Of a stretch of DNA of 64,000 bases, positions 910 through 17,072 are shown piece after piece (position 1 is the stretch's first letter; every line of letters starts with the position of its first letter). The DNA comes from Schleiferiaceae bacterium (GTDB lineage: Bacteria > Bacteroidota > Bacteroidia > Flavobacteriales > Schleiferiaceae). Below the pieces are notes generated by a model. It ran no database searches. It saw nothing but the letters and a program-made list of their open reading frames with translations, and was not told the origin of the DNA. The position numbers and the translations under genes are program-made. The DNA lies in contig JAOMWM010000001.1 in assembly GCA_028357285.1 (NCBI GenBank), forward strand, positions 62,001 to 126,000, given 5' to 3'.

Positions 910-920
910 TTGACTCACTA

Positions 921-2099: not shown

Positions 2100-2175
2100 A
2101 ATCTGGCTGTTGACAACCTTGGGAAAAGTAGTTTAACTGTAACCTGTTATCACATTAGAACTTAAACAAGTTTGT

Positions 2176-2220
2176 TATCTACTATTACTTGTAAATTATA
2201 GTAGATAGGTACATACCTAT
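2176..2220. repeat. Two overlapping inverted repeats
   Basis: TATCTACTAT (2176-2185) pairs perfectly with ATAGTAGATA (2198-2207), leaving a 12-nt loop. The right arm overlaps a second palindrome, ATAGGTA (2205-2211) with TACCTAT (2214-2220). The two structures are mutually exclusive as hairpins. This resembles a protein-binding or recombination site more than a terminator, because no T-tract follows. Confidence 0.6.
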
Positions 2221-2369
2221 TCTAACTTGGGTTCAGATTCTCGAAATCTCTAAGTCGGCTAATAGTCGAGAAGGCTTCCGAACAACTGCAGAGAGCAGTG
2301 GATGAGGGGCAGAAGGGAGATAATTATTAACGGCTCCCTTAATTCCTTGACATGTGTTTGAGAGTAATG

Positions 2370-2442
2370 ACTCATTGACATTAGTGGTGGCACATTGAGA
2401 ATAAAAACAAACCGTTGGTGATAGAGGGTATACTCATTGACA
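2370..2442 (+). repeat. Direct repeat ACTCATTGACA, two copies
   Basis: Identical 11-mers at 2370-2380 and 2432-2442, 62 bp apart. The second sits in the loop of the GTGATAG/CTATCAC hairpin. Function unknown; two copies are too few to call iterons. Confidence 0.5.
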
Positions 2443-2587
2443 CTATCACGGATACTTGGTAAAGCGAAGACTGATGCGGAAGCAAGTCCCCCATTTAAGG
2501 GGGGATATAAAACTATAGTGACGCTTCAGAGCAAATACAAGTCACGTACAGCTCCTATAACCCCCTTACTACTAATTCATTAATACG

Positions 2588-2614
2588 AAAAAAAAGGAGG
2601 GCCTAACCCTCCTT
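2588..2614 (-). terminator. Intrinsic terminator of the first RHH-like gene
   Basis: A perfect 8-bp stem (2594-2601 with 2607-2614, loop CCTAA) is followed on the minus strand by a run of T, matching the A-run at 2588-2595. It lies 38 bases past the stop of the small minus-strand gene at 2652-2834, which fits a terminator for that gene. Confidence 0.8.
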
Positions 2615-2651
2615 CTCTAAACACTATAAACTACTACATTACAACACCTAA

Positions 2652-2834
2652 TCAGCTGTTAAGGGTATTGTAGAGACTTCTACGGAGTATCTCCGTCATA
2701 CTTAACCCAGATTTACAAGAGAGGCTTTTAAGAGCCTCTTTCTCCTCTGGAGTAATGAATATTAGCATTCTTGAAGTCTTAGCTGTTTGACTCTTTTGGA
2801 TGTAGTCGTTGAGGTCACTCTCATTAATAATCAT
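2652..2834 (-). CDS. Small ribbon-helix-helix-like protein, paralogue A
   Basis: A 60-residue protein with a short N-terminal arm, a strand-like segment SRMLIFITPEEKEAL and the C-terminal pattern GLSMTEILRRSL. This matches a ribbon-helix-helix DNA-binding fold of the Arc/CopG/MobC sort. The start is set at the ATG giving MIINESDL, because the paralogue at 3524-3709 aligns from its own MIIKATHL; an upstream ATG at 2858 would add eight unrelated residues. An inverted repeat TTGTAC-N10-GTACAA lies directly upstream. It could be a transcriptional regulator or a relaxosome accessory protein. Fold assignment is by pattern only. Confidence 0.65.
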   Translation of the reverse strand: MIINESDLNDYIQKSQTAKTSRMLIFITPEEKEALKSLSCKSGLSMTEILRRSLYNTLNS

Positions 2835-2836
2835 AA

Positions 2837-2859
2837 TTGTACTTTCTATAATGTACAAG
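2837..2859 (-). promoter_or_regulatory. Inverted repeat TTGTAC-N10-GTACAA upstream of RHH paralogue A
   Basis: TTGTAC at 2837-2842 and GTACAA at 2853-2858 form a perfect inverted repeat immediately before the start codon at 2834. The 12-mer ATAATGTACAAG (2848-2859) recurs exactly at 3724-3735, in the same position before paralogue B. It is a candidate autoregulatory operator. Confidence 0.5.
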
Positions 2860-3523
2860 CAAAGGGTTAGTATATATTATTTATCTTTTGGCTGTAGGTC
2901 TTCAACAACCTATGTACTTGCGTTTAAGGAAAAATAGCTTACCACTGAACATACCCTCCCTTTTACTTGAAAACCTAAGAGGAGCTTAGAATCAAGATTT
3001 GGAGAGCCAACTTGAGCAGATACAAAACCTTCAGGAGTATTGGCAAAACCCAAGTCCCTAGTGAAGCGCCACTGCGCTGACCACTTCACAAAATATCTGT
3101 CACTTCCATTCCATTAGTACCTTTCGGCTTCAAGTCGGATAGAGACGGAGGGTAAGTCTCTTTAAGGAAGCTGTTGACTCAGCTACTAACTTTAATCTTT
3201 CCAACGATTACATCTCGTATCACGCTTGTAAAGGTCTGAATAGAGCTTTTGCTTTCGTGTTTGATTTGATTTGATACGGCTTATGAACCTTGATCATAAA
3301 CGGTGCTCTGAGAAGTCTAACGATAAAAACACTCCTCTATGTCTTTGCATAGATTTATTATGCTTGTTTAGATAATCTACAAGAGATTGAAACTGAGACT
3401 ACCTATACTGAACATACCCTAGTGAGGTATAAATGGGCATTCATTTGCATCATCACTTATTGACGCACTTATCAACGGAAATATGTTTTGAGACTCAGGA
3501 TTGTGATGGTGGCCTGAAGAGAA
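2860..3523. other. Gene-poor spacer between the two RHH paralogues
   Basis: About 660 bases without an open frame worth calling. It contains one copy of the motif AGGTCTT-N10-TGTAC (2896-2917), a 14-base direct repeat ACTGAACATACCCT at 2944-2957 and 3407-3420, and a hairpin-like stretch near 3060-3090 with arms GTGAAG and CTTCAC. On the minus strand between about 2930 and 3160 two short frames read like protein fragments in different phases, so a decayed gene is possible, but I could not assign it. Confidence 0.45.
2944..3420 (+). repeat. Direct repeat ACTGAACATACCCT, two copies
   Basis: Identical 14-mers at 2944-2957 and 3407-3420, both in the spacer upstream of an RHH gene. Together with the shared operator-like sequences this hints that the two RHH units arose by duplication. 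Confidence 0.5.
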
Positions 3524-3709
3524 TTACATCATTAAAATCGTATTGAATAGGCTTCGTCTTACGATTTCATTCATACTCATACCTGTAGTCTGAGATAGTT
3601 TTTGAAGCTTTTCTTTCTCATCTCTTGTAATGAATAAGAGGATTCTAGAATCTTTGGTTGGTTTACTTTCCTCAATGTATTGTGCTAGGTGAGTGGCTTT
3701 TATAATCAT
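3524..3709 (-). CDS. Small ribbon-helix-helix-like protein, paralogue B
   Basis: A 61-residue paralogue of the gene at 2652-2834. The shared pattern is MII at the start, then SRxLxFIT, EEK/DEK, and GxSMxEIxRRSL near the C-terminus, consistent with a ribbon-helix-helix DNA-binding protein. The start MIIKATHL is chosen from this alignment; an upstream ATG at 3748 would add 13 non-conserved residues. It diverges from hsdM, with about 110 bases between the two starts, so it is well placed to regulate the restriction-modification operon. A mobilisation accessory role is the alternative. Confidence 0.65.
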   Translation of the reverse strand: MIIKATHLAQYIEESKPTKDSRILLFITRDEKEKLQKLSQTTGMSMNEIVRRSLFNTILMM

Positions 3710-3713
3710 AGAT

Positions 3714-3795
3714 AGGTCTTTATATAATGTACAAGTTTCACTACCCAACTACTCAATTGTTTGATACGCTTTCAAGGTCTTGTAATCTTATGTAC
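3714..3795. promoter_or_regulatory. Shared bipartite motif AGGTCTT-N7-10-TGTAC between RHH paralogue B and hsdM
   Basis: AGGTCTT occurs at 3714-3720 followed by TGTAC at 3728-3732, and again at 3775-3781 followed by TGTAC at 3791-3795. A third copy lies upstream of paralogue A (2896-2902 with 2913-2917). Spacing is 7, 9 and 10 bases. Position between two divergent starts suggests an operator controlling both. The binding protein is inferred to be one or both RHH proteins. Confidence 0.45.
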
Positions 3796-3819
3796 CTTGA
3801 CAATTACTAATCTGAACCA

Positions 3820-5526
3820 ATGAGTACATACCAAGAGATTTCTTCCTTTATATGGAAGGTTTGTGACGATGAATTAAGAGGTCTATTTAAGCCTCACGAA
3901 TACGGAGATGTAATTATACCCTTTGTTGTATTGAGACGCTTAGATTGTCTCTTAGAGCCCCATAAGGACGAAGTAGTTCAACTATATAACGACCTTAAAG
4001 ACACCATAGATGATGTCTCGCCTATTATCAGGAAAAAGACAGGCCTGACATTTTATAATTACTCAGCCTTTGATCTTCAGCGATTAAAGTCAGACCCCAA
4101 TAAGATAGGTCCAAACTTCAGTTATTACCGAGGTTGCTATTCAGACAATGTCATTCAGATCCTTGAAAACTTTCAGATAGAGAAACTTTCTGATAAGCTT
4201 GCTAAGAATAAGAAACTTTACAGCCTTATTGATAAGTTTACAGAGGTAGATCTTCACCCTGACAAAGTGGATAATCATACGATGGGATCCATCTTTGAAG
4301 AGTTGCTCAGAAGATTTTCTGAGATGAGCAATGAAACAAGTGGAGAGCATTACACCCCAAGAGATGTTGTTAACTTACTTGTATCATTAGTCTTCAGTGG
4401 AGACAAGAATCATTTGAAAGGAGAGGGTATTCTTCGCTCAATATTTGATCCTTGTTGTGGAACAGGTGGTATGTTAACGATTGGAAAAGAGTGGGTTCAG
4501 GAGAATGTTTCAGAAGATGTAAAGTTTCAATTGTATGGCCAAGAGCTGAATCCTCAAACCTTCTCCATATGTAAATCGGACTTCCTTATTACAGGTGAAG
4601 ACCCTGATAATATCAAACTTGGCTCTTCACTTTCGTTTGATCAATTTCAAGGAAAGAAGTTTGACTATATGATAACCAATCCTCCATTCGGAGTTAGTTG
4701 GAAGTCTGAGAAAGATTATATCCTAACTGAGAAAGAAGACCCACAAGGTAGATTCAGTGTGGGTACGCCAAGAGTTTCTGATGGTTCATTACTATTCTTA
4801 CAACATATGATTTCCAAGATGAAATCAGGAGGTTCAAGAATAGGAGTTGTATTTAATGGATCACCACTTTTCACAGGAGATGCAGGAAGTGGAGAATCAG
4901 AAATAAGAAGATGGATAATTGAAAACGATTGGTTAGAATGTATTGTAGCACTACCTGATCAATTATTCTTCAATACAGGTATCACAACCTACATATGGAT
5001 TGTGACTAACAAAAAGAGTCCATATAGAAAGGGGAAGGTTCAGTTAATCAATGCTACCAACCTTTCAACCTCTATGAAAAAAAGCCTTGGGAATAAGAGG
5101 AAATACCTCTCCGATGAGCAGGTTAAGCAAGTCGTCAATGAATATGAACTTAATGGAGAGACTGAAATTTCAAAGATCTTTCCTAACGAGTTTTTTGGAT
5201 ATACCAAGGTTACAGTTGAACAGCCACTTATTGAAAATGGCTTCGTAAAGACAGATAAAAAAGGCAATGCTAAATCTGATAGTAAGCTAAGAGATTATGA
5301 GTCAATACCACTTTCGGAATCGGTAGAGGAGTATTTTGAGCGTGAGGTTCGCCCTCACCTTCCTGATGCTTGGATGGAAAGAGACAAGGATAAAGTTGGG
5401 TATGAAATCAATTTCACCAAGTATTTCTACGAATACAAACCATTGAGAGCAGTTGAAGATATTCTTAACGATCTAGCGAAACTTGAAGAAGAAACTGAGG
5501 CACTCAAAAAAGACCTTTTCAAATGA
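3820..5526 (+). CDS. hsdM: Type I restriction-modification DNA methyltransferase (M subunit)
   Basis: The M subunit transfers a methyl group from S-adenosylmethionine to adenine N6 within the bipartite site read by HsdS. At 568 residues it has the usual HsdM layout: an N-terminal helical domain starting about residue 5 (IWKVCDDELRG), the SAM-binding motif FDPCCGTGG at about 209-217, and the catalytic NPPF at about 287-290. The C-terminal region carries helices that typically contact HsdS. It is the first gene of a four-gene operon and overlaps the next gene by ATGA at 5523-5526. No frameshift or missing motif is seen, so it should be functional. Confidence 0.95.
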   Translation: MSTYQEISSFIWKVCDDELRGLFKPHEYGDVIIPFVVLRRLDCLLEPHKDEVVQLYNDLKDTIDDVSPIIRKKTGLTFYNYSAFDLQRLKSDPNKIGPNFSYYRGCYSDNVIQILENFQIEKLSDKLAKNKKLYSLIDKFTEVDLHPDKVDNHTMGSIFEELLRRFSEMSNETSGEHYTPRDVVNLLVSLVFSGDKNHLKGEGILRSIFDPCCGTGGMLTIGKEWVQENVSEDVKFQLYGQELNPQTFSICKSDFLITGEDPDNIKLGSSLSFDQFQGKKFDYMITNPPFGVSWKSEKDYILTEKEDPQGRFSVGTPRVSDGSLLFLQHMISKMKSGGSRIGVVFNGSPLFTGDAGSGESEIRRWIIENDWLECIVALPDQLFFNTGITTYIWIVTNKKSPYRKGKVQLINATNLSTSMKKSLGNKRKYLSDEQVKQVVNEYELNGETEISKIFPNEFFGYTKVTVEQPLIENGFVKTDKKGNAKSDSKLRDYESIPLSESVEEYFEREVRPHLPDAWMERDKDKVGYEINFTKYFYEYKPLRAVEDILNDLAKLEEETEALKKDLFK

Positions 5527-6452
5527 AACTATTCAATATTTTAGGAGAGAAATTAGAGGCGGTTGGTAGCAACCCTTTTAAACTAGAAAAAGACATTCAA
5601 TCTCTGATTGAAAACAATGTAGACGAATTGTTTGAATTAGAGTTTGTCAAGTCTGAACTACGAATAAACAACTTCAGGTTTGATACTCTTTGCTTTGATG
5701 CTAGCAATAATTCATTTGTAGTTATTGAATACAAGAAAGGGCATAGCTATTCCGTAATTGATCAGGGTTACTCTTACCTCTCCACTCTTCTCAATAACAA
5801 GTCAGACTTCGTTTTAGAATATAACGAGACTTTGGGTAAGACAATGAAGCGAGATGAGGTTGATTGGAGTCAGTCAAGAGTCATCTTCATTTCTCCATCT
5901 TTCTCATTGTATCAAAAGACATCTGTCAACTTTAAAAACCTTCCCTTTGAATTATGGGAGGTTACACGCTATAAAAATGGTTCATTGGCTATGAATCATA
6001 TCAGTACAGAATCTGATGTAGATATTAATTCCACGCTTGTTGATGACGAGAAATCCAATGTGGTAAAACAAGTGTCAAAAGAGGTAAAAAGATATGATGA
6101 GGACTTTCATCTGAATTACTCGCCAAATCGTCCTGATTGGGTCTTTGAAGCCTACGAAGACTTAAAGCAACGGATACTTTCAATAGATGAAAGTGTTGAA
6201 ATAAGAGTAGCAAAACAAACCATTGGTTTCAAAGCAAAAAGAGTATTTGCAGATATCATTGTAACAAATAAGGGCCTCAAAGTCGTGCTAAACCTCAAGA
6301 AAGGTGAATTAAGAGATGACCTAAACAAGGCAGAAGACATCAGTAATAAAGGGCATTGGGGTACAGGAGATTATTGGTATTGGATCTTTTCAATGGATGA
6401 CATTGACTATGCGCTAAATCTGATCAAACAGTCATTTAATAAGCAGGCCTGA
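5523..6452 (+). CDS. DUF91/NucS-like and DUF5655 protein inside the RM operon
   Basis: A 309-residue protein of two parts. The N-terminal half (about 20-150) resembles DUF91/NucS-type nucleases, with a PD-(D/E)xK-like arrangement: Asp in RFDTLCFD followed by VVIEYKKG, giving D...ExK. The C-terminal part (about 200-305) has the DUF5655 pattern, including NKGHWGTGDYWYW and a final DIDYALNLIKQ. Such proteins occur beside type I RM genes in other bacteria; their role is not settled. It overlaps hsdM by four bases and its stop shares one base with the hsdS start, so it is translated as part of the RM unit. Nuclease activity is inference from the motif. Confidence 0.75.
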   Translation: MKLFNILGEKLEAVGSNPFKLEKDIQSLIENNVDELFELEFVKSELRINNFRFDTLCFDASNNSFVVIEYKKGHSYSVIDQGYSYLSTLLNNKSDFVLEYNETLGKTMKRDEVDWSQSRVIFISPSFSLYQKTSVNFKNLPFELWEVTRYKNGSLAMNHISTESDVDINSTLVDDEKSNVVKQVSKEVKRYDEDFHLNYSPNRPDWVFEAYEDLKQRILSIDESVEIRVAKQTIGFKAKRVFADIIVTNKGLKVVLNLKKGELRDDLNKAEDISNKGHWGTGDYWYWIFSMDDIDYALNLIKQSFNKQA

Positions 6453-7726
6453 TGAAAGCTTATAATTCATACAAAAGTTCAGAGATTGATTGGATTGAAC
6501 AAATCCCATCGCATTGGTCAGAAAATAGAATTAAGTACTTGTTCTCAGAAAAACCAAGTACACAAAATACAGATCTAAATTCAGGCTCAATAAGTTTCGG
6601 TTCAGTAGTTTACAAAGATGACAATTCAATCCCTGAATCTACCAAACTCTCATATCAAGAAGTGTTAGTTGGAGAATTCTTGATTAACCCATTGAACCTT
6701 AATTACGATTTAAAAAGTTTGAGAACTGCTCTGTCAGATAAAAATGTCGTGGTTAGCCAAGGTTATATAGTTTTAAGGTTAGAAGAAAGAGATACTGATC
6801 AATCTTTTTTCAAACACCTCCTTAGAGTATTTGATGTTGAGCATATGAAATCACTTGGAAGTGGAGTCAGACAGACTATTTCTTTTAATCACCTTGGCAC
6901 AGAAGCTTTGCCATTACCACCAATTAAAGAGCAAAAAGCAATTGCATCTTTTTTAGATACCAAATCTTCACTCATTGATTCTCTAATTGAGAAAACCCAA
7001 CGAAAGATTAAACTACTAAAAGAGAAAAGAACCTCTTTAATAAATGAAGTAGTTACCAAAGGATTGAATCCTAATGTAGAGATGAAGGATAGTGGTGTGG
7101 AATGGATTGGAACAATGCCTAATAATTGGGTTAAGAAGAAGGTTTCTTGGATTAGTAAAGTCGCAAGCGGCACTACCCCAAAATCAGATAACAAAGAGTA
7201 TTATGAGAACGGAACAGTTAAGTGGCTGAATACAGGCGATTTAAATGACGGATTTCTAAGCACAACGAAAAAGTTAATTACTCAAAAAGCAGTTGATGAC
7301 TGTAAACTCAAACAGTATAGCTCTTATTCTGTGGTTGTAGCTATGTACGGTGCAACAATTGGAAAGACTTCTGTAATTACTGAACCTATGACTGTTAATC
7401 AAGCGTGCTGTGTGATCAACGATATAAAGGAAGTAAGCTCCACTTGGGTATATTATGTGTTTTTAGCAAGTAAGTCAAACCTTATTTTTCAAGGAGAAGG
7501 TGGGGGTCAGCCAAATATAAATCAAGAGACCATAAGGTCTCACTTTGTAACAATACCTCCTTTAAGTGAGCAAAATAGAATTTTGACATTCTTGAACGAA
7601 CAAACAGAATTAATTGATAAATCAGTTTCCATTGAAGAAGAGAGAATCAAACTTCTCAAAGAATACCGTCAATCGCTAATTTCAAGTGTAGTTACAGGTA
7701 AAATTAAAGTAACTGAAGATGCCTAG
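6452..7726 (+). CDS. hsdS: Type I restriction-modification specificity subunit (S subunit)
   Basis: HsdS reads the two halves of the target sequence and holds two HsdM and two HsdR subunits. The 424 residues show the expected duplication: a first target recognition domain (about 15-150), a conserved helical spacer (LPLPPIKEQKAIASFL, about 150-205), a second recognition domain beginning after VEWIGTMPNNW (about 213), and a second spacer (IPPLSEQNRILTFL to the end). The two recognition domains differ from each other, as expected for an asymmetric bipartite site. The gene overlaps hsdR by 8 bases. No adjacent second hsdS or inverted repeats for phase variation are seen. Confidence 0.93.
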   Translation: MKAYNSYKSSEIDWIEQIPSHWSENRIKYLFSEKPSTQNTDLNSGSISFGSVVYKDDNSIPESTKLSYQEVLVGEFLINPLNLNYDLKSLRTALSDKNVVVSQGYIVLRLEERDTDQSFFKHLLRVFDVEHMKSLGSGVRQTISFNHLGTEALPLPPIKEQKAIASFLDTKSSLIDSLIEKTQRKIKLLKEKRTSLINEVVTKGLNPNVEMKDSGVEWIGTMPNNWVKKKVSWISKVASGTTPKSDNKEYYENGTVKWLNTGDLNDGFLSTTKKLITQKAVDDCKLKQYSSYSVVVAMYGATIGKTSVITEPMTVNQACCVINDIKEVSSTWVYYVFLASKSNLIFQGEGGGQPNINQETIRSHFVTIPPLSEQNRILTFLNEQTELIDKSVSIEEERIKLLKEYRQSLISSVVTGKIKVTEDA

Positions 7727-10661
7727 TAAGCCGAGTGAATTAAGATTTGAAGAATGGGTTGAAGCCTCGCTTGTAAAAGTGGGCTTCAAAGATAGTTTTG
7801 TGCATTCTAACGAGTTTTCAGAAGCTTACGACAAAGACCTATGCCTTCTTCCTGAACACCTCTTAAACTTCGTTAAATCAACTCAGATAGAGACCTATGA
7901 AAGGCTTCAATCATTGAAGGACTCAGCTACGGATATTTTTCTTTTAAAGAAGATAGATGAGCTTATTTCAAAGAGAGGAATTATTGAGGTATTAAGAAAC
8001 GGTATTCAGACATCAGGCTGTAATTTTCAATTAGCTTACTTCAAGCCCAAAAGCGACCTCAACCCTGAGCTGAATGCACTTTATTCTAAGAATCATTTTA
8101 CGGTTGTTAGACAACTTCATTATTCAAAGAGAAATAATAACTCTTTAGATATGACACTCTTCTTGAATGGAGTGCCTATTTCAACCCTAGAGCTTAAAAA
8201 TCAACTTACAGGTCAATCCATTCGTGATGCTGAAAAACAGTACAAGTTTGATCGTGATCCAAGAGAGCCGTTATTCAAGTTTAAGCGCTGTCTAGTGCAC
8301 TTTTGTGTGGACAATGACAAAGTCTCTATGACGACAAGATTGAGTGGATCTAAGACAAGGTTTTTACCATATAACAAAGACATAGAGAATCCGTTGGTAG
8401 AAGATGATTATCGCTCAAACTATCTATGGAATGAAATCTTAAAACCTGACTCTCTTCTTGATATCATAGAAAATTTTGTCCTCATCTCAGAAGAGGAAGA
8501 AAGAGAGTGGAATCCTAAAAAGAAAATTGTTGAGAAGAAGAAGTTTGAAGTCCAAATATTCCCAAGATATCACCAATTAGAAGTAATTCGTTCTCTACGA
8601 GAAACAGTTAAAGTTGAAGGCGTAGGAAAGAACTATCTAATTCAACACACAACAGGATCAGGGAAGTCATATTCTATAGGTTGGTTGTCCCATACCCTCG
8701 CCTCTCTGTATCAAAAACAGGGAGACACTAAGAGAATGTTTGATAGCATTCTCGTGCTTACGGATCGTAAAGTTTTGGATAAGCAACTTCAAGGTACAGT
8801 CTCAAAGCTAGAACAAACCGATGGGGTTGTTAACAATGTTGACCTCAACTCTCAGCAATTAAAAGAGTTTTTGGAGAAGGGTAAAGATATTATTATAACC
8901 ACCGTACAGAAGTTCCCTGTAATCTCAGATGCTATTGCTAACCTAAAGAGCAAAACATTTGCTGTGGTGATTGATGAGGTTCATTCATCTCAAAGTGGTG
9001 AAACAGCCAAGCACATTAAGAAGTCGCTTTCTAAAACTGAAGAGGAAGAAGAACTTGACTTTGAGGATCTGATTCGCTTAGAAATATCCTCAAGAGGAAA
9101 GCAAGACCACATTTCATATTTCGGCTTCACAGGAACACCTAAGAACAAGACACTTGAACTATTCGGTAGAAAGAACTCAGACGGTTTATTTGTTCCGTTT
9201 CATTCGTACACAATGAAACAATCAATAGCCGAGGGATTTACTTTGGATGTTCTTCAGAACTATACAACTTACAAGAGGTTCTTCAAGGTTCTTCAAACAG
9301 ATGATGAAGACAAAGAAGTTCCTGAAAGTCAGGTTAAACGAGAATTGGTGCAATTCGTAGACTCTCACGAGGAAACCATTAAGCAGAAGGTCACAATAAT
9401 TCTAGACCATTTCGTTGACAAAGCATCTAGAAAAATTGATGGTAAGGCTAGAGGGATGGTTGTTGTGCGTTCTAGAAAACACTGCGTCCTATTCCACGAA
9501 GAGATGGTAAGTCAAATGAGAGAAAGAAATCTAACATATAGCTGTTTGGTTGCTTTCTCAGGCACTATCTATCACAATGGAATTGAGAACACTGAAGTCT
9601 CATTGAACAAGGCAAATGGACTTAAAGGAAACATACCTGACGGCTTGAAAGATCCGAGATTCAGGATATTAATTGTTTCAAATAAATACCAAACAGGTTT
9701 TGACGAACCTATGATGCAGTCAATGTATGTTGACAAGAAATTGAATGGAGTTCAATGTGTACAAACACTCTCAAGACTCAACAGGACGAAAAGCGGAAAG
9801 ACAGATACCTTCGTTTTAGATTTTGCTAATGAAACCGAAGAGATTGTAGAGTCGTTTCAGCCATATTTCACCTCTACCGTTTTAACAGAGGAAACTGACC
9901 CTGATAAGGTTTATGATCTTCTCTATGAGATTGAACAATATCAGCTTTATACTGATTATCAGCTAGATGAATTCTGTAAAGAATTTTATTCTGTATCAGA
10001 CTCAGACGAAAAACTACATCCAATCATTGATGAAGTAGTAAAGAGGTTTAAAGACAGGCTAGACGAAGAAGTACAGGATAAATTCAAATCTCTGATCCAA
10101 TCATACATAAGGCTCTATTCATATGTCACACAGATATCTTCTTTTGCTGAGGTGAGTTGGGAGAAGAATTATGTATTCCTGAGATTCTTAAACAAGAAGC
10201 TACCTAAAGGAAAAGCAGAGAGAGTTTCAGTTTTGGATTATGTTGATTTGGATTCCCTAAGGATTCAGATGATGGGAGAGTCTCAATTATCCCTTCAAGA
10301 TCAGGTTGGCGAATTAGATCCTCAATTTGGTGGAACATCAACATTGGCCCCTGAAGAAGAAAAAGAACTTCTCTCTCAAATCATAGATAAGGTTAACAAT
10401 CTTTATGGTGTTGATCTTGGGGAAGAGGATAAGATCAATATGGATCTTGTGGTTAAGCGTGTTTCGCAAAACGAAGATCTCAGGAAGGTTATGAAAGGTG
10501 ATAATACGGATGATGATCGTAAGGCCTACTTTGAGAAAATATTCAAAGACGAGATGGTAGACTTCTATGGTGATCGTATTGACTTCTATAAGAAGGTTAT
10601 GGATAAGAATGTATTTCCATTAATTGCTGATGGAATCTTTAGGGCTATTCAAAATCTCTAA
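7719..10661 (+). CDS. hsdR: Type I restriction endonuclease, motor/nuclease R subunit
   Basis: The R subunit cuts unmethylated DNA after ATP-driven translocation. The 980 residues have an N-terminal nuclease domain with D144 and the pair E158/K160 (in STLELKNQ), forming the PD-(D/E)xK site. A superfamily 2 helicase follows, with Walker A TTGSGKS at about 311-317, a Walker B of type DEVH near 418-422, and motif III FTGTP. A C-terminal helical region follows the motor, from about residue 750, and would bind the core methylase. The start overlaps hsdS by 8 bases, which suggests translational coupling. All catalytic motifs are intact. Confidence 0.95.
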   Translation: MPSKPSELRFEEWVEASLVKVGFKDSFVHSNEFSEAYDKDLCLLPEHLLNFVKSTQIETYERLQSLKDSATDIFLLKKIDELISKRGIIEVLRNGIQTSGCNFQLAYFKPKSDLNPELNALYSKNHFTVVRQLHYSKRNNNSLDMTLFLNGVPISTLELKNQLTGQSIRDAEKQYKFDRDPREPLFKFKRCLVHFCVDNDKVSMTTRLSGSKTRFLPYNKDIENPLVEDDYRSNYLWNEILKPDSLLDIIENFVLISEEEEREWNPKKKIVEKKKFEVQIFPRYHQLEVIRSLRETVKVEGVGKNYLIQHTTGSGKSYSIGWLSHTLASLYQKQGDTKRMFDSILVLTDRKVLDKQLQGTVSKLEQTDGVVNNVDLNSQQLKEFLEKGKDIIITTVQKFPVISDAIANLKSKTFAVVIDEVHSSQSGETAKHIKKSLSKTEEEEELDFEDLIRLEISSRGKQDHISYFGFTGTPKNKTLELFGRKNSDGLFVPFHSYTMKQSIAEGFTLDVLQNYTTYKRFFKVLQTDDEDKEVPESQVKRELVQFVDSHEETIKQKVTIILDHFVDKASRKIDGKARGMVVVRSRKHCVLFHEEMVSQMRERNLTYSCLVAFSGTIYHNGIENTEVSLNKANGLKGNIPDGLKDPRFRILIVSNKYQTGFDEPMMQSMYVDKKLNGVQCVQTLSRLNRTKSGKTDTFVLDFANETEEIVESFQPYFTSTVLTEETDPDKVYDLLYEIEQYQLYTDYQLDEFCKEFYSVSDSDEKLHPIIDEVVKRFKDRLDEEVQDKFKSLIQSYIRLYSYVTQISSFAEVSWEKNYVFLRFLNKKLPKGKAERVSVLDYVDLDSLRIQMMGESQLSLQDQVGELDPQFGGTSTLAPEEEKELLSQIIDKVNNLYGVDLGEEDKINMDLVVKRVSQNEDLRKVMKGDNTDDDRKAYFEKIFKDEMVDFYGDRIDFYKKVMDKNVFPLIADGIFRAIQNL

Positions 10662-10922
10662 TCCCCCCTCAAAGAGGTTAGCTTACTAGAAACAGCGAAA
10701 TTCTCCGGTCAATCCAAAAACTGACAGTAAAAACTGACAGTATTGACAGTAAATCGTACCTTTTCACTGATTATTAACCCACTGTTGGTTTTTAAGAAGT
10801 TCTCTATTTAATTGGAAAATCTGGGTTTCTAAAGCGGAGTAGCAACTTCAATGCTTTAGCGTTGATTTGAGGCTGTGCCTCAGTTGTAGCGAGTTATAAG
10901 AGTACAACGATGCTATAAACGA
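10662..10922. other. Non-coding junction between the RM island and the tRNA-Met
   Basis: No gene seen. It contains three copies of TGACAGTA near its left end and a small hairpin GAGGC-TGT-GCCTC near 10870. It lies where the AT-rich island gives way to ordinary chromosome, so it may include an end of the mobile element. Confidence 0.45.
10722..10751 (+). repeat. Three direct copies of TGACAGTA
   Basis: Copies at 10722-10729, 10735-10742 and 10744-10751; the first two sit in the larger repeat AAAAACTGACAGTA. Short tandem sites near a tRNA and at an island edge resemble arm-type integrase sites, but no binding consensus for this integrase is known to me. Confidence 0.5.
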
Positions 10923-10956
10923 AGAAACCCTCTGAAGTTTCCTTCAAAGGGTTTCT
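10923..10956 (-). terminator. Terminator of tRNA-fMet
   Basis: A stem of 15 pairs with one G-T mismatch (10923-10937 with 10942-10956, 4-nt loop) begins a few bases after the mature 3' end of the minus-strand tRNA and is followed by a short T-rich stretch on that strand. This is the expected position and form of a tRNA transcription terminator. Confidence 0.75.
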
Positions 10957-10959
10957 GAG

Positions 10960-11032
<73 letters not shown>

Positions 11033-11237: not shown

Positions 11238-12167
11238 TTAGAAGATATAGGTTTCATATTCACGCATAATGGATATATCAGAGTCTGGCATGCGGTTGAC
11301 TCGGTTATCGACTTGAACTAAGGCATAGATGCACTTTTGAGCGTTACGAGATTTAGCGACTTTGTGAAGTTGTCCAGCGATAGCATTGCCTAAACCCTTG
11401 GCTTGGAATTCACGTAGAATACCTATGGTTTTAAAAATGATGGTAGCGTCGGGGAGTTCTGATAAATAGGCAAAACCTACTTTTTGATCTTTTATCTGGA
11501 CCCAGTACAACAGCGGAGTGTTATTAGAGCCTGCGGTTATGTGCTGCAGCCAATTTTGGAATTGGACCTTCGTCATAGACTCATAGCCCCAATTACCACT
11601 AAAGATGGCGTCGATCAAATTTAGGAGGGCATCGGCTGTTCCGGACGAGCCTAGCTCTATGTGCTCAAGGGAGAATCCTTGATCATACCAGTCTTGAACA
11701 AAAGGTTCGGACACTTCGATGACGCCGTCAAAGTGCGTGCGATAAGCGCTGCGGTATTTTACTACTTTTTTTGGTCGGCAGGCGTTAAAAAAGTTAGCCA
11801 CGTACGGAGCACTCTCCCACTCGCCAGGGAAGATGGGACCACCGTTAGTCATCGAAATGAATTTATACGGCAAGAAAGTCGAACCGTTGATAGGTCCGTA
11901 CAAAGGGCCTACGAATTGAGCCCTGGTTTGGGCCCATGCTTCGCGTTGATTTTCTTCAGTGCCCCCTTTCAGTTCAAAAAATCCAAAGGCGTGTCCGTCC
12001 ATAAATGGATAGGTTCCGAAGCAGAAATAGTCATTATCGATCCACTGGGCATTAATCTTTGATGAATAGAAGTCCCAGCAGGTGCGTTCATAATCACACG
12101 ACTCGTGGCCAAGGTTGGCTTTGCGGTAGCGAACAAAATTTTGAAAATGGTCAAGCGTAGGTATCAT
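11238..12167 (-). CDS. GNAT-family N-acyltransferase, likely tandem-GNAT
   Basis: A 309-residue protein. The C-terminal half has the GNAT acyl-CoA-binding pattern (GILREFQAKGLGNAIAGQL, a variant of the V-x-x-x-x-R/Q-G-x-G/A loop). The N-terminal half has features seen in other two-domain GNAT proteins, such as FVGPLYGPINGST and later YRSAYRT, so it is probably a degenerate second GNAT fold. It would acylate an amine or similar group on an unknown acceptor. It is the last gene of the four-gene operon and overlaps the dikinase gene by four bases, which links its job to that pathway. The substrate cannot be read from sequence. Confidence 0.75.
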   Translation of the reverse strand: MIPTLDHFQNFVRYRKANLGHESCDYERTCWDFYSSKINAQWIDNDYFCFGTYPFMDGHAFGFFELKGGTEENQREAWAQTRAQFVGPLYGPINGSTFLPYKFISMTNGGPIFPGEWESAPYVANFFNACRPKKVVKYRSAYRTHFDGVIEVSEPFVQDWYDQGFSLEHIELGSSGTADALLNLIDAIFSGNWGYESMTKVQFQNWLQHITAGSNNTPLLYWVQIKDQKVGFAYLSELPDATIIFKTIGILREFQAKGLGNAIAGQLHKVAKSRNAQKCIYALVQVDNRVNRMPDSDISIMREYETYIF

Positions 12168-14464
12168 AGTATGGGTTTTAACGTGCCGCTTGCGGCGTCA
12201 AGAACGGCTTCTCCCCCATCTTTTAGTTGTGCTGTTGCATTTGGCGCACCGATAATGCAGGGTATGCCCAATTCTCTTGTTACGATGGAAGCGTGTGAAA
12301 GCAATCCACCTTGCTCGACCACTAAGCCCTTAGCTTTACTTATGAGCATACTCCATCCCGGGTCGGTATGTTTAGCCACGAGGATATCAAAGTCTGGCCA
12401 GGGTCCTGGTCGGTATTCATCCATTACCAATAAGCGGCCTTTGACGACACCAGGGAACACACATTGTCCCTCAACAATTTCGCCGGTGGCAGTACCAGAA
12501 ATGTAGGGCGGTGCCTCCCCCGATGGAGTTGTAGCGAAACTCCGCGGGTATCGATCATCTGCATGCTTGACATATTTTGCTTTGCGCTCTACAATCAAAT
12601 CTTTCCACTGTGTAATATCACCGGCAAACCATTCTTCAATTTTAAGGTAGAAGATGTCATCGGGTTCTTGAATATGACCGGATTGGGCCGCGTTAATTCC
12701 ACCTTGAAGCAATATGCGACGTAACCAACCGAAGCCAGTGGAGCGCAATAGTCTAAACGCTTCACGTTGTTTGATATAGCGCTGTAGTTGCTTTATGCCC
12801 CAGGGTAATTTTTGGTCGGTATGTGGGCCGCTAGACAAAAGTGGGCTGGACGCAATCTCTTGAATTGCGTTCGACAGAGCGCCGAAATCATCCATAGGAC
12901 TCGGTGATTCGAGCTTAAGCTCGTTGGGGAATCGACCACCGAAAATGGAGAAATATGTGGTCCAACGCTCATGTAATTCGCGATTTTGTTGGAGTTGATT
13001 GTAGAATGCAGATTCGTCTACCGCGATTAACGCCTTCTTCAATAGGACATCTTCAATCACCTCATGGGCTAAGGCTTTGAAGTCTCTCAATTGTTTGACG
13101 CTTGGGGTTTCCACTGAGAGGAAGCCCTGAAGTTCCTCTGGGCTGTACTTTTTCTCAGCCCATCCAAGGAACGTCATCAGTACAGTGTCGCTCTCTACGG
13201 TGACATACCAGCGGCGTAACCAGCGGCGCTCGCAATGGTTCCATAAAGTTTGGAGTTCGGAGGTGGAGCGCTTCGAAAAATCAGTCCTGCCTAAGGCATT
13301 AAAATCTTTCTGAACAACTCGATTGAATCTGTTCTTCGTCCATGGGAAACAGAGCACCTTCCACAACATTAGCGGATAGTAGGCAATTTTCAACCAAGCT
13401 GATGGTCGCATACTTTCAGGAAGGAAAATTTGTTGGCGAATTTCAGCAGTGATCATGCGCTCTAAGTTTTCCTTGTTCCTCTCATAACCAGGCAGGAAAA
13501 ACATCATGGAATACCAATGATTCATGACATAGTACATGCGGCCATTAAAGTCTTTGACAAGGTTATCAAAAACGCTTTGATGGCGCCGGATGGTTTGCTT
13601 GGGTACCCCGCTATGTGCGAGTAAATCCTCGTATACATATTTGTAGAGTCGGCGCGCCACGCTTGCCGTCATTGGGCTTACCGTGCCCGTGTAAGATTCG
13701 GCTAGGTTAGAATTATCGAATAGCCAAAGCTGAGGGAGCCAGTCTACCGTCACCGGACGAATTTGTAGTACGTACAATTTACCCTCAACAAAGGTCCACT
13801 CCACATCCATAGGCTTGCTGTAATGCTGGCGAACCTTTCGGTACAAACGAAGCAGCGCTCGATCCAGGATAGGGGTCCATTTATTAGACTCAAATTCCTT
13901 AGTCACGATTTGACCCGAAGTGCTGTCAAAGAGCTGACCTTGTCGTAAGTCGGAGCCCTGGTCCATCCAAGTTTCTCCGCTGGGATGAAACCCTCTTTGG
14001 GCAACTTCAAACCCTTGAACCACATAATTACACAATCCCGGCGCATAGTTGACCATCCATCGTTCTTCGTGGGTAAACATCACGCCTGAAGTACTATTGA
14101 CACTATGAATCAGGGGCTGTATCACGACGCCGTGAGGTTCATTATCGGGAGATAATTCTGGTAAACTTGCGGCCACAACATTGATGGCATCGGCAATTGA
14201 TTCTTTGGTGATACCCAGTAGGGTCTTAAATTGGCCCGCGGCAGCGCTTTCCTCAGTATCCTCCGTAATGCTTGAGCTGCGAACCGCGTAAAAATCGGAC
14301 TCCCCTATTTCATCTAAAACCGCTTTAGCAATCTCCTCGGGATTAGCGTTTGGAAGGTCATCGTCAGCGCATACCGAAGTGAAAGGCAACGTTTTAAATC
14401 CATGTTCTTGCAAACTTGCGAGCCCTTTAGCCTTATTCCCAAAAACGCCTAATGTTAGAGCCAT
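12164..14464 (-). CDS. PPDK/PEP-synthase-like dikinase (ATP-grasp plus phosphohistidine domain)
   Basis: A 766-residue enzyme with an N-terminal pyruvate-phosphate-dikinase type ATP-grasp domain (residues 1 to about 240; VRSSSITED at 61-69, LQIRPVT near 235) and a C-terminal swivelling phosphohistidine domain ending the protein, with catalytic His724 in GGLLSHASIV. Between them lies about 400 residues of unrelated, mainly helical sequence instead of the PEP/pyruvate-binding barrel of true PEP synthase, which would follow the His domain. This order is like rifampin phosphotransferase and other small-molecule dikinases. It would therefore phosphorylate, or activate by phosphorylation, a specific small molecule. 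It overlaps the UbiA gene by 10 bases. The substrate is unknown. Confidence 0.8.
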   Translation of the reverse strand: MALTLGVFGNKAKGLASLQEHGFKTLPFTSVCADDDLPNANPEEIAKAVLDEIGESDFYAVRSSSITEDTEESAAAGQFKTLLGITKESIADAINVVAASLPELSPDNEPHGVVIQPLIHSVNSTSGVMFTHEERWMVNYAPGLCNYVVQGFEVAQRGFHPSGETWMDQGSDLRQGQLFDSTSGQIVTKEFESNKWTPILDRALLRLYRKVRQHYSKPMDVEWTFVEGKLYVLQIRPVTVDWLPQLWLFDNSNLAESYTGTVSPMTASVARRLYKYVYEDLLAHSGVPKQTIRRHQSVFDNLVKDFNGRMYYVMNHWYSMMFFLPGYERNKENLERMITAEIRQQIFLPESMRPSAWLKIAYYPLMLWKVLCFPWTKNRFNRVVQKDFNALGRTDFSKRSTSELQTLWNHCERRWLRRWYVTVESDTVLMTFLGWAEKKYSPEELQGFLSVETPSVKQLRDFKALAHEVIEDVLLKKALIAVDESAFYNQLQQNRELHERWTTYFSIFGGRFPNELKLESPSPMDDFGALSNAIQEIASSPLLSSGPHTDQKLPWGIKQLQRYIKQREAFRLLRSTGFGWLRRILLQGGINAAQSGHIQEPDDIFYLKIEEWFAGDITQWKDLIVERKAKYVKHADDRYPRSFATTPSGEAPPYISGTATGEIVEGQCVFPGVVKGRLLVMDEYRPGPWPDFDILVAKHTDPGWSMLISKAKGLVVEQGGLLSHASIVTRELGIPCIIGAPNATAQLKDGGEAVLDAASGTLKPIL

Positions 14465-15327
14465 ACGACTAGATTGAGTAATATATACGATAAGACTGCG
14501 CCAGCTTGAATACTGTACTTGCCTTTTTTATCAGGTTTGTTGGCGTAGCGCATTGCGCCTAGAAGCAATGGCAAGATCGCTAACCAAATGTACAGTTGGG
14601 ATACTCCGGAAATTTGAGCATAGAGCCACATAGAAAGTAGCCCAATTAGCAAGGTTACGACTGCACTCCCCCAAATTCCTAAGCGTGAAGAATAGCTGTC
14701 TCTGTAAGCTGTTTCTTCGTCAGGTGGAAGGCATTTTCGAGCTGCTTCGACAAGAGCACTTAAGGCAAATACACCTAAGGCATGCCACCAAATATTTTCG
14801 GACCATTGAAGTGTTTTGGAGATGGCAGCATAAGCGACCAATTGGAGCAACAACATCTGCATCAACATGATTACATTATATAACCAAAAGTGAGGCTTGA
14901 GTTTTGCTAAGGGACCTACCTCGTAACGCGCCAATATAGAATAGAGCAATAGCCCTGCAGAAAGTAAGCCAGACAAGGGATCCAACACTATGTGGATGCT
15001 GATGAATATTCCGCCATTCCAATAACCAATACGCAAGATTTCCTTTTCCGTGATCAGTCCACGCTGTAGTGGGCGATCCGGATGATGCACATCATCAACC
15101 TCTTTATCTCTTAACTCATCAATAACTCGAGTGTGAAGTAAGAAGGACAGTCCAGCCACGGCGAGTAAGGCATATTTCCACCACTCCGCGTAGTAACCGT
15201 CCAGTTCTAAAACAGCCAACGTTGATACAATAATGGCCAATGTAGTTGGCAACAAAAAGACCAGCGGGAACCGTTCGATCTGGTATTGATAGAGCCGACG
15301 CCCTAGACCTTGCTTTGTTTCTTCCAT
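14455..15327 (-). CDS. UbiA-family prenyltransferase-like integral membrane protein
   Basis: A 290-residue polytopic membrane protein with about eight or nine hydrophobic segments. It carries the two Asp-rich loops of the UbiA superfamily: VIDELRDKEVDD (D70, D74, D78/79) after the second membrane segment, and PPDEETAYRDSYSSRLG (203-219) later. These loops bind Mg-diphosphate of a prenyl donor. The first loop has D in place of the classic N of NDxxDxxxD. It is not obviously UbiA, MenA or a heme O synthase. It overlaps the BtaA-like gene by 25 bases and the dikinase gene by 10. Prenyl or phospholipid-like donor and acceptor are unknown. Confidence 0.8.
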   Translation of the reverse strand: MEETKQGLGRRLYQYQIERFPLVFLLPTTLAIIVSTLAVLELDGYYAEWWKYALLAVAGLSFLLHTRVIDELRDKEVDDVHHPDRPLQRGLITEKEILRIGYWNGGIFISIHIVLDPLSGLLSAGLLLYSILARYEVGPLAKLKPHFWLYNVIMLMQMLLLQLVAYAAISKTLQWSENIWWHALGVFALSALVEAARKCLPPDEETAYRDSYSSRLGIWGSAVVTLLIGLLSMWLYAQISGVSQLYIWLAILPLLLGAMRYANKPDKKGKYSIQAGAVLSYILLNLVVWL

Positions 15328-16244
15328 AGGTAAAAGTTATTATAAAATGGCACCCTATCATTTTCGGTCACTTTCATTAGGGTCCACTGGTTTTGGAAGG
15401 AATGCGGCACTGTTATGGCATAGCGATGTTCCCAATACAGAAATAATGAACCCGGCGTACATGCCCGATCAACCAAAGCAAAAAAGTCAGCATTGTACTC
15501 CTCATCCGTTCCTTCCATAATGTCCGAAGCGTGAATCATATGGCGAGCCCGCGGCAATTGCTTTACGTAGGATTTCATATCCATATGGTGGAATAGTAGA
15601 GCATCTGATTCTGGGATCCAATTTCCTTGTAAGTAATCTAACCGACTGTGTTTGTGATAGCCGTGAATGATATAATCTACATATGGATTTTCAATGAGCG
15701 GGTGGGCAAGGATTTTTTCTTTGAATTGGTCCAAGTAATTCACCTGCCTAGGTTTTTTACTCTTGTCCTGAATCAATCCCGGAGGACGCGCTTTGGTATC
15801 CACATTTTCGAGAGAGAAAATTCGACTTGTTAAAAATTGAAATCTTCGAGTATCCCATCCCCGGGCATATACCTCAGCTCTGTGCGCTGTTGAATCTGCC
15901 TGCACCATCTGTTTTCGTGCTCCTGGAGCTAATAAAATAGGGAACACCCTAGCGAACTTCTGCAGAAAGCCTTCCAATTTACCCCCGTGCAGCAACCCTC
16001 GTCGTGAATTAACACCAAAAAGTTGATCGCGATTCGGAGCACTTAGCGCCGCAAGCTTCTTTTGAACGTGTCCAATCTGTGCATGTTCTGTATCGATCAA
16101 ATGAATGTACGTGACTCCGTGGTGGAGTAAACTGAAGGCATGGTCTCCACCACTGGCAACCATGTGATAGTGTTCAACCTCATGCGTATCAACGATACTA
16201 CGAAGTAGATTGGTATCTTCCCAAGATTGCGAGTAATAGAGCAC
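15303..16244 (-). CDS. BtaA-like 3-amino-3-carboxypropyl transferase (DUF3419)
   Basis: A 313-residue protein with the signature of the DUF3419/BtaA family: YYSQSWEDTNLL at the N-terminus, a SAM-binding region VASGGDHAFSLL at 29-40, and HLIDTEHAQ with D51. BtaA moves the aminocarboxypropyl group of S-adenosylmethionine to diacylglycerol in betaine-lipid synthesis. This protein is shorter than the roughly 400-residue BtaA, and no BtaB methyltransferase gene is nearby, so the product may be a different lipid or small molecule. It begins the four-gene overlapping operon. It lies 141 bases downstream of a gldA-like gene on the same strand. Function is by family only. Confidence 0.75.
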   Translation of the reverse strand: MLYYSQSWEDTNLLRSIVDTHEVEHYHMVASGGDHAFSLLHHGVTYIHLIDTEHAQIGHVQKKLAALSAPNRDQLFGVNSRRGLLHGGKLEGFLQKFARVFPILLAPGARKQMVQADSTAHRAEVYARGWDTRRFQFLTSRIFSLENVDTKARPPGLIQDKSKKPRQVNYLDQFKEKILAHPLIENPYVDYIIHGYHKHSRLDYLQGNWIPESDALLFHHMDMKSYVKQLPRARHMIHASDIMEGTDEEYNADFFALVDRACTPGSLFLYWEHRYAITVPHSFQNQWTLMKVTENDRVPFYNNFYLWKKQSKV

Positions 16245-16385: not shown

Positions 16386-17072
16386 CTACTTCGCGAAGAT
16401 TTCTTCTAGATGTTTTGAGCCTTTTTGGATTTCAGTTTCGGTCAATACCTGTTTCAACTCGCCTCCTTGCAGGAATATACAACTAGAACATAACTCCACC
16501 ACCTCTTGCATGATGTGTGTGGAGAACAGCACTGTTTTATCAGTAGCGATGTTTTTAAGCAACGTACGGATTTCAATCAATTGGGCTGGATCTAAACCTG
16601 TCGTAGGTTCATCTAAAATGAGCACCTCAGGATCCGGAATCAACGCAGCTGCTAATCCCACCCGTTGTCTGTAACCCTTCGATAAAGAACCAATTTTCTT
16701 ATGCTGTTCAGGTCCTAAGACTGTTTGCTCAATCACGGTTGGGATTCTTTCTTTATCTACTTTGTACAATTGGGCCACATATTCCAAATACTCGCGAACA
16801 TAAAGCTCGAGATATTGCGGATTGTGTTCCGGTAGGTAACCTAACGACTGTTGCACCTGAAGAGGCGACACAACCACATCTACTCCATTCACCACAGCAG
16901 TTCCAGAGGTAGGTAAGATTGCACCCGTAATGATTTTCATCAAGGTACTCTTCCCAGCACCGTTGGGACCTAGAAGTCCCGTGATTTGGCCTTTCTCAAT
17001 GGTCAAAGTCACTTCGTTCAGCGCCTTTTGAGCACCGTAGTTCTTCGAAATATTTGTTAGCTCGATACTCAT
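16386..17072 (-). CDS. gldA: ABC transporter ATP-binding protein, GldA-like
   Basis: A 228-residue ABC ATPase with Walker A GPNGAGKST (about 35-43), signature LSKGYRQR, Walker B LILDEP and switch THIMQE. The run GYLPEHNPQYLELYV and the overall N-terminal pattern resemble GldA, the ATPase of the GldA-GldF-GldG transporter linked to gliding in Flavobacterium. It ends shortly after the switch region (KHLEEIFAK), shorter than the roughly 300 residues I recall for GldA, so the symbol is tentative. No gldF or gldG is nearby, as is usual for gldA. The start overlaps the stop of the upstream peptidase gene by four bases. Confidence 0.65.
   Translation of the reverse strand: MSIELTNISKNYGAQKALNEVTLTIEKGQITGLLGPNGAGKSTLMKIITGAILPTSGTAVVNGVDVVVSPLQVQQSLGYLPEHNPQYLELYVREYLEYVAQLYKVDKERIPTVIEQTVLGPEQHKKIGSLSKGYRQRVGLAAALIPDPEVLILDEPTTGLDPAQLIEIRTLLKNIATDKTVLFSTHIMQEVVELCSSCIFLQGGELKQVLTETEIQKGSKHLEEIFAK

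Follow-up and report, generated by a model that had tools for sequence, protein, structure and literature searches.

A recurrent gene module uniting DUF3419, UbiA-type, rifampin-phosphotransferase-like and tandem-GNAT proteins, a candidate pathway for a membrane-associated aminolipid

The closest described systems to the locus reported here are betaine-lipid synthesis by BtaA and BtaB, phytol salvage, bacterial sphingolipid synthesis, the mevalonate-pathway HMG-CoA reductase (HMGR), and the rifampin phosphotransferases. Phytol salvage is composed of phytol kinase, phytyl-phosphate kinase, and chlorophyll synthase, the last of which uses phytyl diphosphate as its substrate; DUF92 proteins are linked to phytyl-phosphate kinase. 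Bacterial sphingolipids are formed by serine palmitoyltransferase and ceramide synthase. In the rifampin phosphotransferase of Listeria (RPH-Lm), the β-phosphate of ATP is reported to pass to a histidine and then to a hydroxyl group of the drug; residues Lys22, Arg117, and Thr136 take part in the first of these transfers and Arg666 and Glu667 in the second, with His825 as the phosphate carrier, and Glu297 is dispensable (PMC4844700). RPH-type dikinases phosphorylate other small molecules too, as reported for HpeHI (PMC12167813).

The window, which is the whole stretch of 64,000 nucleotides analysed from a Schleiferiaceae bacterium, belonged to a 1.67-Mb draft genome (G000) that was 74% complete. 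It contained four genes, A, B, C, and D, arranged head to tail on the minus strand from window position 16244 to 11238, with overlaps of 25, 10, and 4 bases (Table 1). The open reading frames and Pfam matches confirmed the four overlapping genes and the families given for them in the initial annotation. Apart from the DNA methylase HsdM, no methyltransferase was found in the operon, in the next six genes beyond A, or in the next four beyond D. The product was therefore rightly separated from a classic BtaA/BtaB betaine lipid in that annotation, as BtaB was found neither in the operon nor among these ten annotated flanking genes. None of A to D matched a PADLOC model at 1e-5.

Table 1. Genes of the window operon and the features at its two boundaries (window positions)
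Feature	Position	Strand	Family match
Gene A, DUF3419 (BtaA-like) aminocarboxypropyl-transferase-like, 313 aa, GTG start	15303-16244	-	PF11899, 60.7 bits (cut-off 28.2)
Gene B, UbiA-superfamily membrane enzyme, 290 aa	14455-15327	-	PF01040, 58.3 bits (cut-off 34.2)
Gene C, rifampin-phosphotransferase-like dikinase, 766 aa	12164-14464	-	PF01326 and PF00391 (Pfam)
Gene D, tandem-GNAT acyltransferase-like, 309 aa	11238-12167	-	PF00583, 30.0 bits (cut-off 20.7)
ABC-transporter ATPase (GldA-like), module boundary, not a pathway member	16386-17072	-	
tRNA-Met, other module boundary, not a pathway member	10959-11032	-	

The DUF3419 family (PF11899) was found in 46 of 395 genomes of the window's phylum, G000 included, and the flanks were taken for 40 of the other 45. 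Nine of these 40 loci contained a module-type DUF3419 protein, which scored about 230–280 bits on a profile made from the first relatives. Genes B, C, and D flanked it in all nine, and a further gene, E, in eight. The 28 BtaA-type loci scored at most 85 bits, and none contained B to E. The presence of C near DUF3419 thus differed between 9/9 module-type and 0/28 BtaA-type loci (Fisher p 8e-9, with relatives counted singly and four of the nine loci from one genus). A class-I methyltransferase, read as BtaB-like from sequence only, was located within the flank in 25 of the 28 BtaA-type loci. Of the other loci, L069 and L075 were intermediate and L083 had no local match. In L069 (8002–11869), the DUF3419 protein formed a fusion with a PEMT-type methyltransferase domain and was adjoined by a D-like GNAT and a protein of a lipid kinase family, with neither B nor C; the locus possibly represents another DUF3419 pathway.

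In a tree of 51 DUF3419 sequences, hand-picked from a larger set, the module-type proteins formed their own group with a support of 83/90 for the separating branch, one long-branched row excepted. Window A clustered with this group on a very long branch (5.55), so that its substrate may differ. A variant BtaA route, in which A makes diacylglyceryl-homoserine and the other genes are unrelated neighbours, would agree with the DUF3419 assignment of A but is highly improbable. The linkage of B, C, and D to the module-type but not to the BtaA-type protein, the separate tree group, and the BtaB-like methyltransferase that accompanies most BtaA-type proteins and is absent from the window operon all argue against it. 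The same linkage upheld the proposal that the operon is one functional unit.

When named genomes were scanned with the C alignment, 583 stretches from 579 relatives were obtained, and the best 80, which are those nearest to the query and no census, were analysed. A search for the same gene order in other genomes had been suggested as a check, and a rare co-occurrence of the families was refuted, with A, B, and C together in 54 and A to E in 38 of these best 80 of 583 stretches. C stood without other module genes in 5 of the 80 loci among the matches listed, and its distribution is thus wider than that of the module. According to the record titles, the 54 loci with A, B, and C among the matches listed came from about a dozen phyla, although most were metagenome bins and single placements may be wrong. 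The taxa included Bacteroidota, Acidobacteria, Verrucomicrobia, Planctomycetes, Proteobacteria, Cyanobacteria, Melainabacteria, Trueperaceae, Leptotrichia, Balneolaceae, Endomicrobia, Clostridia, Methylomirabilis, and Thermoleophilia.

A set of 94 loci was assembled from 15 loci obtained apart from the C scan and 79 loci among the matches listed of that scan, with L090, a repeat of L019, excluded. Three further genes recurred in this set: H, an HMG-CoA-reductase-like protein; L, an AMP-forming ligase; and E, a membrane kinase-like protein. Protein clustering placed C in 94, B in 76, A in 76, D in 67, E in 63, L in 61, and H in 45 of the 94 loci. A six-frame rescan with hand-set thresholds gave C in 94, B in 84, A in 83, D in 78, E in 70, L in 65, and H in 52, and A, B, and C together in 78. 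These counts were inflated by close relatives, including four loci of one genus and five of the window type. The commonest full gene order among the matches listed was H-B-C-A-E-D-L. Fused open frames joined A to D in L102 and L111, C to A in L136, C to D in L128, L to B in L134, and, weakly, C to L in L117. The four genes of the window, which had neither L nor E alongside, are a trimmed copy of a module that normally has seven genes.

Protein A was matched in 8 of 100 relatives, G000 counted. The carriers were G000, G017, and G024 among the 25 genomes of the genus and G034, G048, and G056 in a second genus, with weak matches in G026 and G042. The A-B-C-D order was also found in G024, G017, G034, and G048, and G056 contained A-B-C up to a contig end. 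The 25-, 10-, and 4-base overlaps were identical in G024 and G017. Between G000 and G024, dN/dS was 0.09 for A, 0.03 for B, 0.11 for C, and 0.12 for D. These low values and the recurring overlap pattern indicate that the operon genes are maintained.

The operon was located between the ABC-transporter gene and tRNA-Met in G000, G024, and G017. Among the 25 genomes of the genus, the ABC gene was detected in 17, and A was missing from 14 of these. In 10 of these 14, tRNA-Met followed the ABC gene directly, at about 60–160 bp; the remaining four comprised one contig end and three genomes with other small genes at the site. Synonymous differences between G000 and G024 were 0.26–0.44 in the module, smaller than 0.75 in the ABC gene. 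With the site empty in relatives and the synonymous divergence lowered, the module behaves as a cassette that was recently gained, lost, or exchanged.

An integrative element of about 12 kb (window 163–10958 and C1:60700–62000, the latter being L187 12700–14000) was inserted at tRNA-Met. It contained an integrase (163–909), a type I restriction-modification set (3820–10661), and 44-bp direct repeats at window 10925–10968 and L187 12700, and at window 10959–11002 and L187 13728. A DUF5655 protein between HsdM and HsdS (window 5523–6452) matched the candidate defence family PDC-S18 with an E-value of 5e-114. In G024, the site of the element was uninterrupted.

The C protein was composed of an ATP-grasp domain, a substrate domain, and a C-terminal phosphohistidine swivel domain, with no PEP-barrel family among its Pfam matches. 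The C-family profile matched RPH-Lm (PDB code 5hv2) with an E-value of 8e-117 over two stretches, which spanned the ATP-grasp and the substrate/swivel parts. The earlier description as a dikinase without a PEP barrel was therefore retained, and its PPDK-like label was replaced by rifampin-phosphotransferase-like. Residues Lys22, Arg117, Thr136, Glu297, Arg666, Glu667, and His825 of RPH-Lm corresponded to Lys11, Arg62, Thr81, Glu222, Arg567, Glu568, and His724 of window C, and the Arg-Glu pair was invariant in 11 of 11 aligned family members. On the NCBIfam RPH equivalog model, window C scored 127.1 bits against a cut-off of 999, which placed it below RPH proper; it reached 112 bits on prodigiosin-ligase-type models. 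Judged from its sequence, C probably phosphorylates a small molecule.

Among 26 matching plasmid records with C-like proteins, five were examined. Four belonged to other cluster types, and the fifth, from Roseinatronobacter, contained H (truncated where the record stops), B, C, A, E, D, and L by profile. On two Streptomyces plasmids (L175 4669–14991 and L176 9466–16144), C-like dikinases were located beside AfsA-type hotdog and isoprenylcysteine-methyltransferase-like proteins. In Thioclava, a C homologue was found inside an NRPS/PKS-type cluster.

These relatives bear on the reading that the module makes a diffusible secondary metabolite, such as a signal or antibiotic derived from an amino acid and prenylated, in which case C would be a phosphotransferase for self-protection or a PigC-type ligase. 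The relation of C to rifampin phosphotransferase and to the prodigiosin-ligase-type models, the Streptomyces AfsA-type and Thioclava NRPS/PKS-type settings, and the patchy, cassette-like distribution are in accord with it, as is a P450 family that was the next-commonest neighbour after the seven families and adjoined 9 of the 94 loci (79 among the matches listed). Several features oppose it, however, and it is considered rather improbable. Module copies include genes of lipid type, which encode CdsA-like, CDP-alcohol transferase, phosphatidylserine (PS) decarboxylase, and lipid kinase proteins. No regulator was found among the identified families common to at least four loci. Transporters were few: the MMPL family, including a protein inside L114, occurred in 4 and the family of the flanking ABC gene in 8 of the 94 loci (79 among the matches listed).

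In the PDB, the A-family profile matched designed repeat proteins and a calponin. In window B, the first UbiA motif was retained and read RVIDELRDKEVDD, starting at residue 67. The second Asp-rich motif of UbiA enzymes is expected to be DxxxD; at its position, window B had E..RK......E instead (EAARKCLPPDEE, from residue 194). Both features were invariant in 12 of 12 aligned members of the B family, the first as DE..D...D and the second as E..RK......E at a site aligned to chlorophyll synthase. The nearest solved structures to the B-family profile were chlorophyll synthase (7e-9) and DGGGP synthase (0.0018). The predicted fold of D had two GNAT folds per chain and matched tandem GNATs, for example 7q3a (E 1.9e-7) and mycothiol synthase, which bears out the tandem-GNAT assignment made earlier; the pLDDT of the model was 76.6, with the first 44 residues below 50.

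H matched PF00368 at more than 330 bits. In 25 module genomes, HMGR was found in 21 and the MEP enzyme DXR in 21; 17 had both, with one HMGR each, and in 16 of these 17 the HMGR was within the module locus. A role of H as isoprenoid supplier, which was the first reading, was rejected because the sole HMGR was the module H and DXR was present in 16 of the 25 genomes. DXR was the only marker used in this comparison, and the HMG-CoA synthase family PF08540, found in 1 of 25, seems blind to the Bacteroidota types. A second HMGR was present in G042 and G158, in which DXR was not found. In Leptotrichia (G505), the HMGR adjoined HMG-CoA synthase and DXR was absent, as for an ordinary mevalonate enzyme. 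No HMGR was seen in the module locus of G503.

Against the module-H profile, four housekeeping HMGRs of the window's family did not exceed 27 bits per domain, compared with 334–408 bits for fusions of H to an APH kinase, so that the housekeeping proteins are another HMGR type. In an HMGR tree that did not include these housekeeping proteins, the H-APH type fell into a clade of its own, separate from the remaining module HMGRs. In the genomes that combine a module HMGR with DXR, H is independent of isoprenoid supply. Acting together, L and H could convert an acid to an alcohol.

E had no Pfam or NCBIfam match over the cut-off and no match in a PDB sequence search; DUF2339 matched below its cut-off, and in the long E proteins the best match for a second domain, DUF92, was 0.005, also below the cut-off. 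With Foldseek, nothing was found under an E-value of 0.001, and CdsA was third by E-value (0.1) with the highest probability (0.95–0.96). CdsA was first with VIA-align (Z 8.5), which is a weak match for a helical protein. The conserved residues and motifs of E presumably resemble those of phytol and dolichol kinases.

Gene replacements pointed in the same direction. H and an APH kinase were joined in one open frame in L102, L111, L161 (Kosakonia), G000, and G024. The first three of these loci had no E, and an APH match occurred in 0 of 70 E-bearing loci (Fisher p 0.015). E was likewise not found in the sequences of G000 and G024 (drafts 74% and 88% complete) and is likely absent from both genomes, whereas G017, G034, G048, and G056 had E and one HMGR each. 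L078 was without E and contained a YegS lipid kinase. That unrelated kinases take the place of E is the strongest argument for E being a kinase that acts after H; the identity of E as a kinase rests on this replacement together with the motifs and the weak fold match.

The fusion of G000 (778 aa, C1:57008–59344) was located about 2.7 kb before window base 1, beyond the integrative element, and formed a separate unit. A fatty-acid desaturase overlapped this fusion (L187 9008–12264, C1:57008–60264). In G024, one contig ended with the matching part of the desaturase, after the module and its tRNA, and another contig with the fusion plus the remainder of the desaturase. As L is missing from the window lineage and H-APH is located apart, the product of this lineage may be simpler or may differ.

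Lipid-type neighbours were found in some module copies. CDP-alcohol phosphatidyltransferase (CDP-OH_P_transf) and CTP transferase (CTP_transf_1) proteins were inside L095 and L109, and PS decarboxylase was inside L078, L080, L128, and L164. SRPBCC-like proteins occurred in 8 of the 94 loci (79 among the matches listed), and the one that was scanned matched below its cut-off. PS decarboxylase and H were never together, H being present in 0 of 4 loci with PS decarboxylase and in 52 of the 90 others (p 0.037; 79 of the 94 loci among the matches listed). Two of the PS decarboxylase loci had a thioester-reductase-type SDR. The lack of H in these loci and the SDR in two of them weigh against the carboxyl fate proposed below. 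The phospholipid-type genes, each a minority feature, favour a phosphorylated and head-grouped lipid product.

The module is tentatively assigned as a conserved biosynthetic unit for a membrane-associated aminolipid, which would probably be phosphorylated. Every substrate, the order of the steps, and the product are what we infer in this assignment. A would move the 3-amino-3-carboxypropyl group from SAM onto a hydroxyl group of a lipid or prenylated intermediate, and D would acylate the newly added amino group. In full modules, L would activate a carboxyl group and H would reduce it to a primary alcohol; the carboxyl of the aminocarboxypropyl unit would be the most economical choice. This alcohol would be phosphorylated by E or, in the window genome, by the H-fused APH kinase, and a CDP-alcohol-type head group may be added afterwards in some module copies. 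B would attach a chain of isoprenoid or similar type, with oxygen as the most likely attachment point, and C would phosphorylate an intermediate with ATP via the swivelling phosphohistidine. The initial annotation had proposed an amino-acid-headed lipid or prenylated metabolite. A lipid-type product, with SAM, ATP, and an acyl donor as inputs, is still likely; the four-gene unit on which it was based gave way to one of normally seven genes.

The same enzymes could be arranged in another way, with L and H making an alcohol from a fatty or isoprenoid acid, E and perhaps C phosphorylating it, B transferring it as an ether or ester, and A and D decorating the acceptor. The L-B fusion and the reductase, lipid kinase, UbiA order of L078 favour this arrangement. 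The position of chlorophyll synthase, a phytyl diphosphate user, as the nearest structure to B and the kinase-like motifs of E, whose phosphorylation step would be as in phytol salvage, are consistent with it, and that fusion, like the weak signal for DUF92 in the long E, fits it at least as well as it fits the aminolipid assignment, although the DUF92 match was under its cut-off. On the other hand, the two A-D fusions couple the aminocarboxypropyl and acyl steps, and the head-group genes of some copies would act on a lipid phosphate and not on an alkyl donor; both favour the aminolipid route. Neither arrangement is singled out by these data; the alkyl- or prenyl-donor arrangement is regarded as possible, and as somewhat less likely than the aminolipid route.

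If the aminolipid route is right, its product would resemble ceramide phosphate, built on the four-carbon methionine unit rather than on serine. That the product is a hitherto unknown ceramide-like phospholipid class, a lipid ether of N-acyl homoserinol phosphate formed with no serine palmitoyltransferase and spread horizontally over a dozen phyla, is a bolder and unlikely reading.

No description of the gene set as a pathway was found in the open-access literature that was searched, and one may exist in subscription papers or preprints. All the enzyme families are known, and it is the pathway formed by them that is regarded as new. If the assignment is true, a pathway of as many as seven enzymes, so far unassigned, is present in at least 10 of the 395 sampled genomes of the window's phylum, G000 counted, and in about a dozen other groups among the matches listed. 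It would provide functions for orphan genes of the DUF3419, RPH-like dikinase, HMGR-like, and kinase-like types, whose family names alone would suggest betaine lipids, PEP synthase, or HMG-CoA reductase. The presence of HMG-CoA reductases in organisms without use of mevalonate would also be accounted for. All seven genes are present in named strains, namely Dyadobacter psychrotolerans, Rhabdobacter roseus, Rubritalea profundi, and Paracoccus xiamenensis, so that the product can be sought there directly.

When the module was compared with the described systems, each shared one part of it. BtaA/BtaB betaine-lipid synthesis has the SAM-dependent DUF3419 aminocarboxypropyl-transferase family in common with it, whereas the module lacks BtaB, has a DUF3419 protein of another group, and links it to six other enzyme families. 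The rifampin phosphotransferase and HpeHI-type dikinases have the same domain order as C and the residues for both half-reactions, but C scored far under the RPH equivalog cut-off (127 bits against 999) and is located in a biosynthetic module. As in phytol salvage, a membrane alcohol-kinase-like protein, E, is paired with a chlorophyll-synthase-related UbiA enzyme, B; the DUF3419, dikinase, GNAT, ligase, and HMGR-like enzymes of the module are additional to that pathway. H shares PF00368 with the mevalonate-pathway HMG-CoA reductase but is found mostly in MEP genomes, and the housekeeping HMGRs hardly match its profile (at most 27 bits). The proposed product would be similar to bacterial sphingolipids in being an N-acylated amino alcohol with a phosphate and a head group, whereas serine palmitoyltransferase is not among the seven recurrent families and the backbone of the module product would come from SAM.
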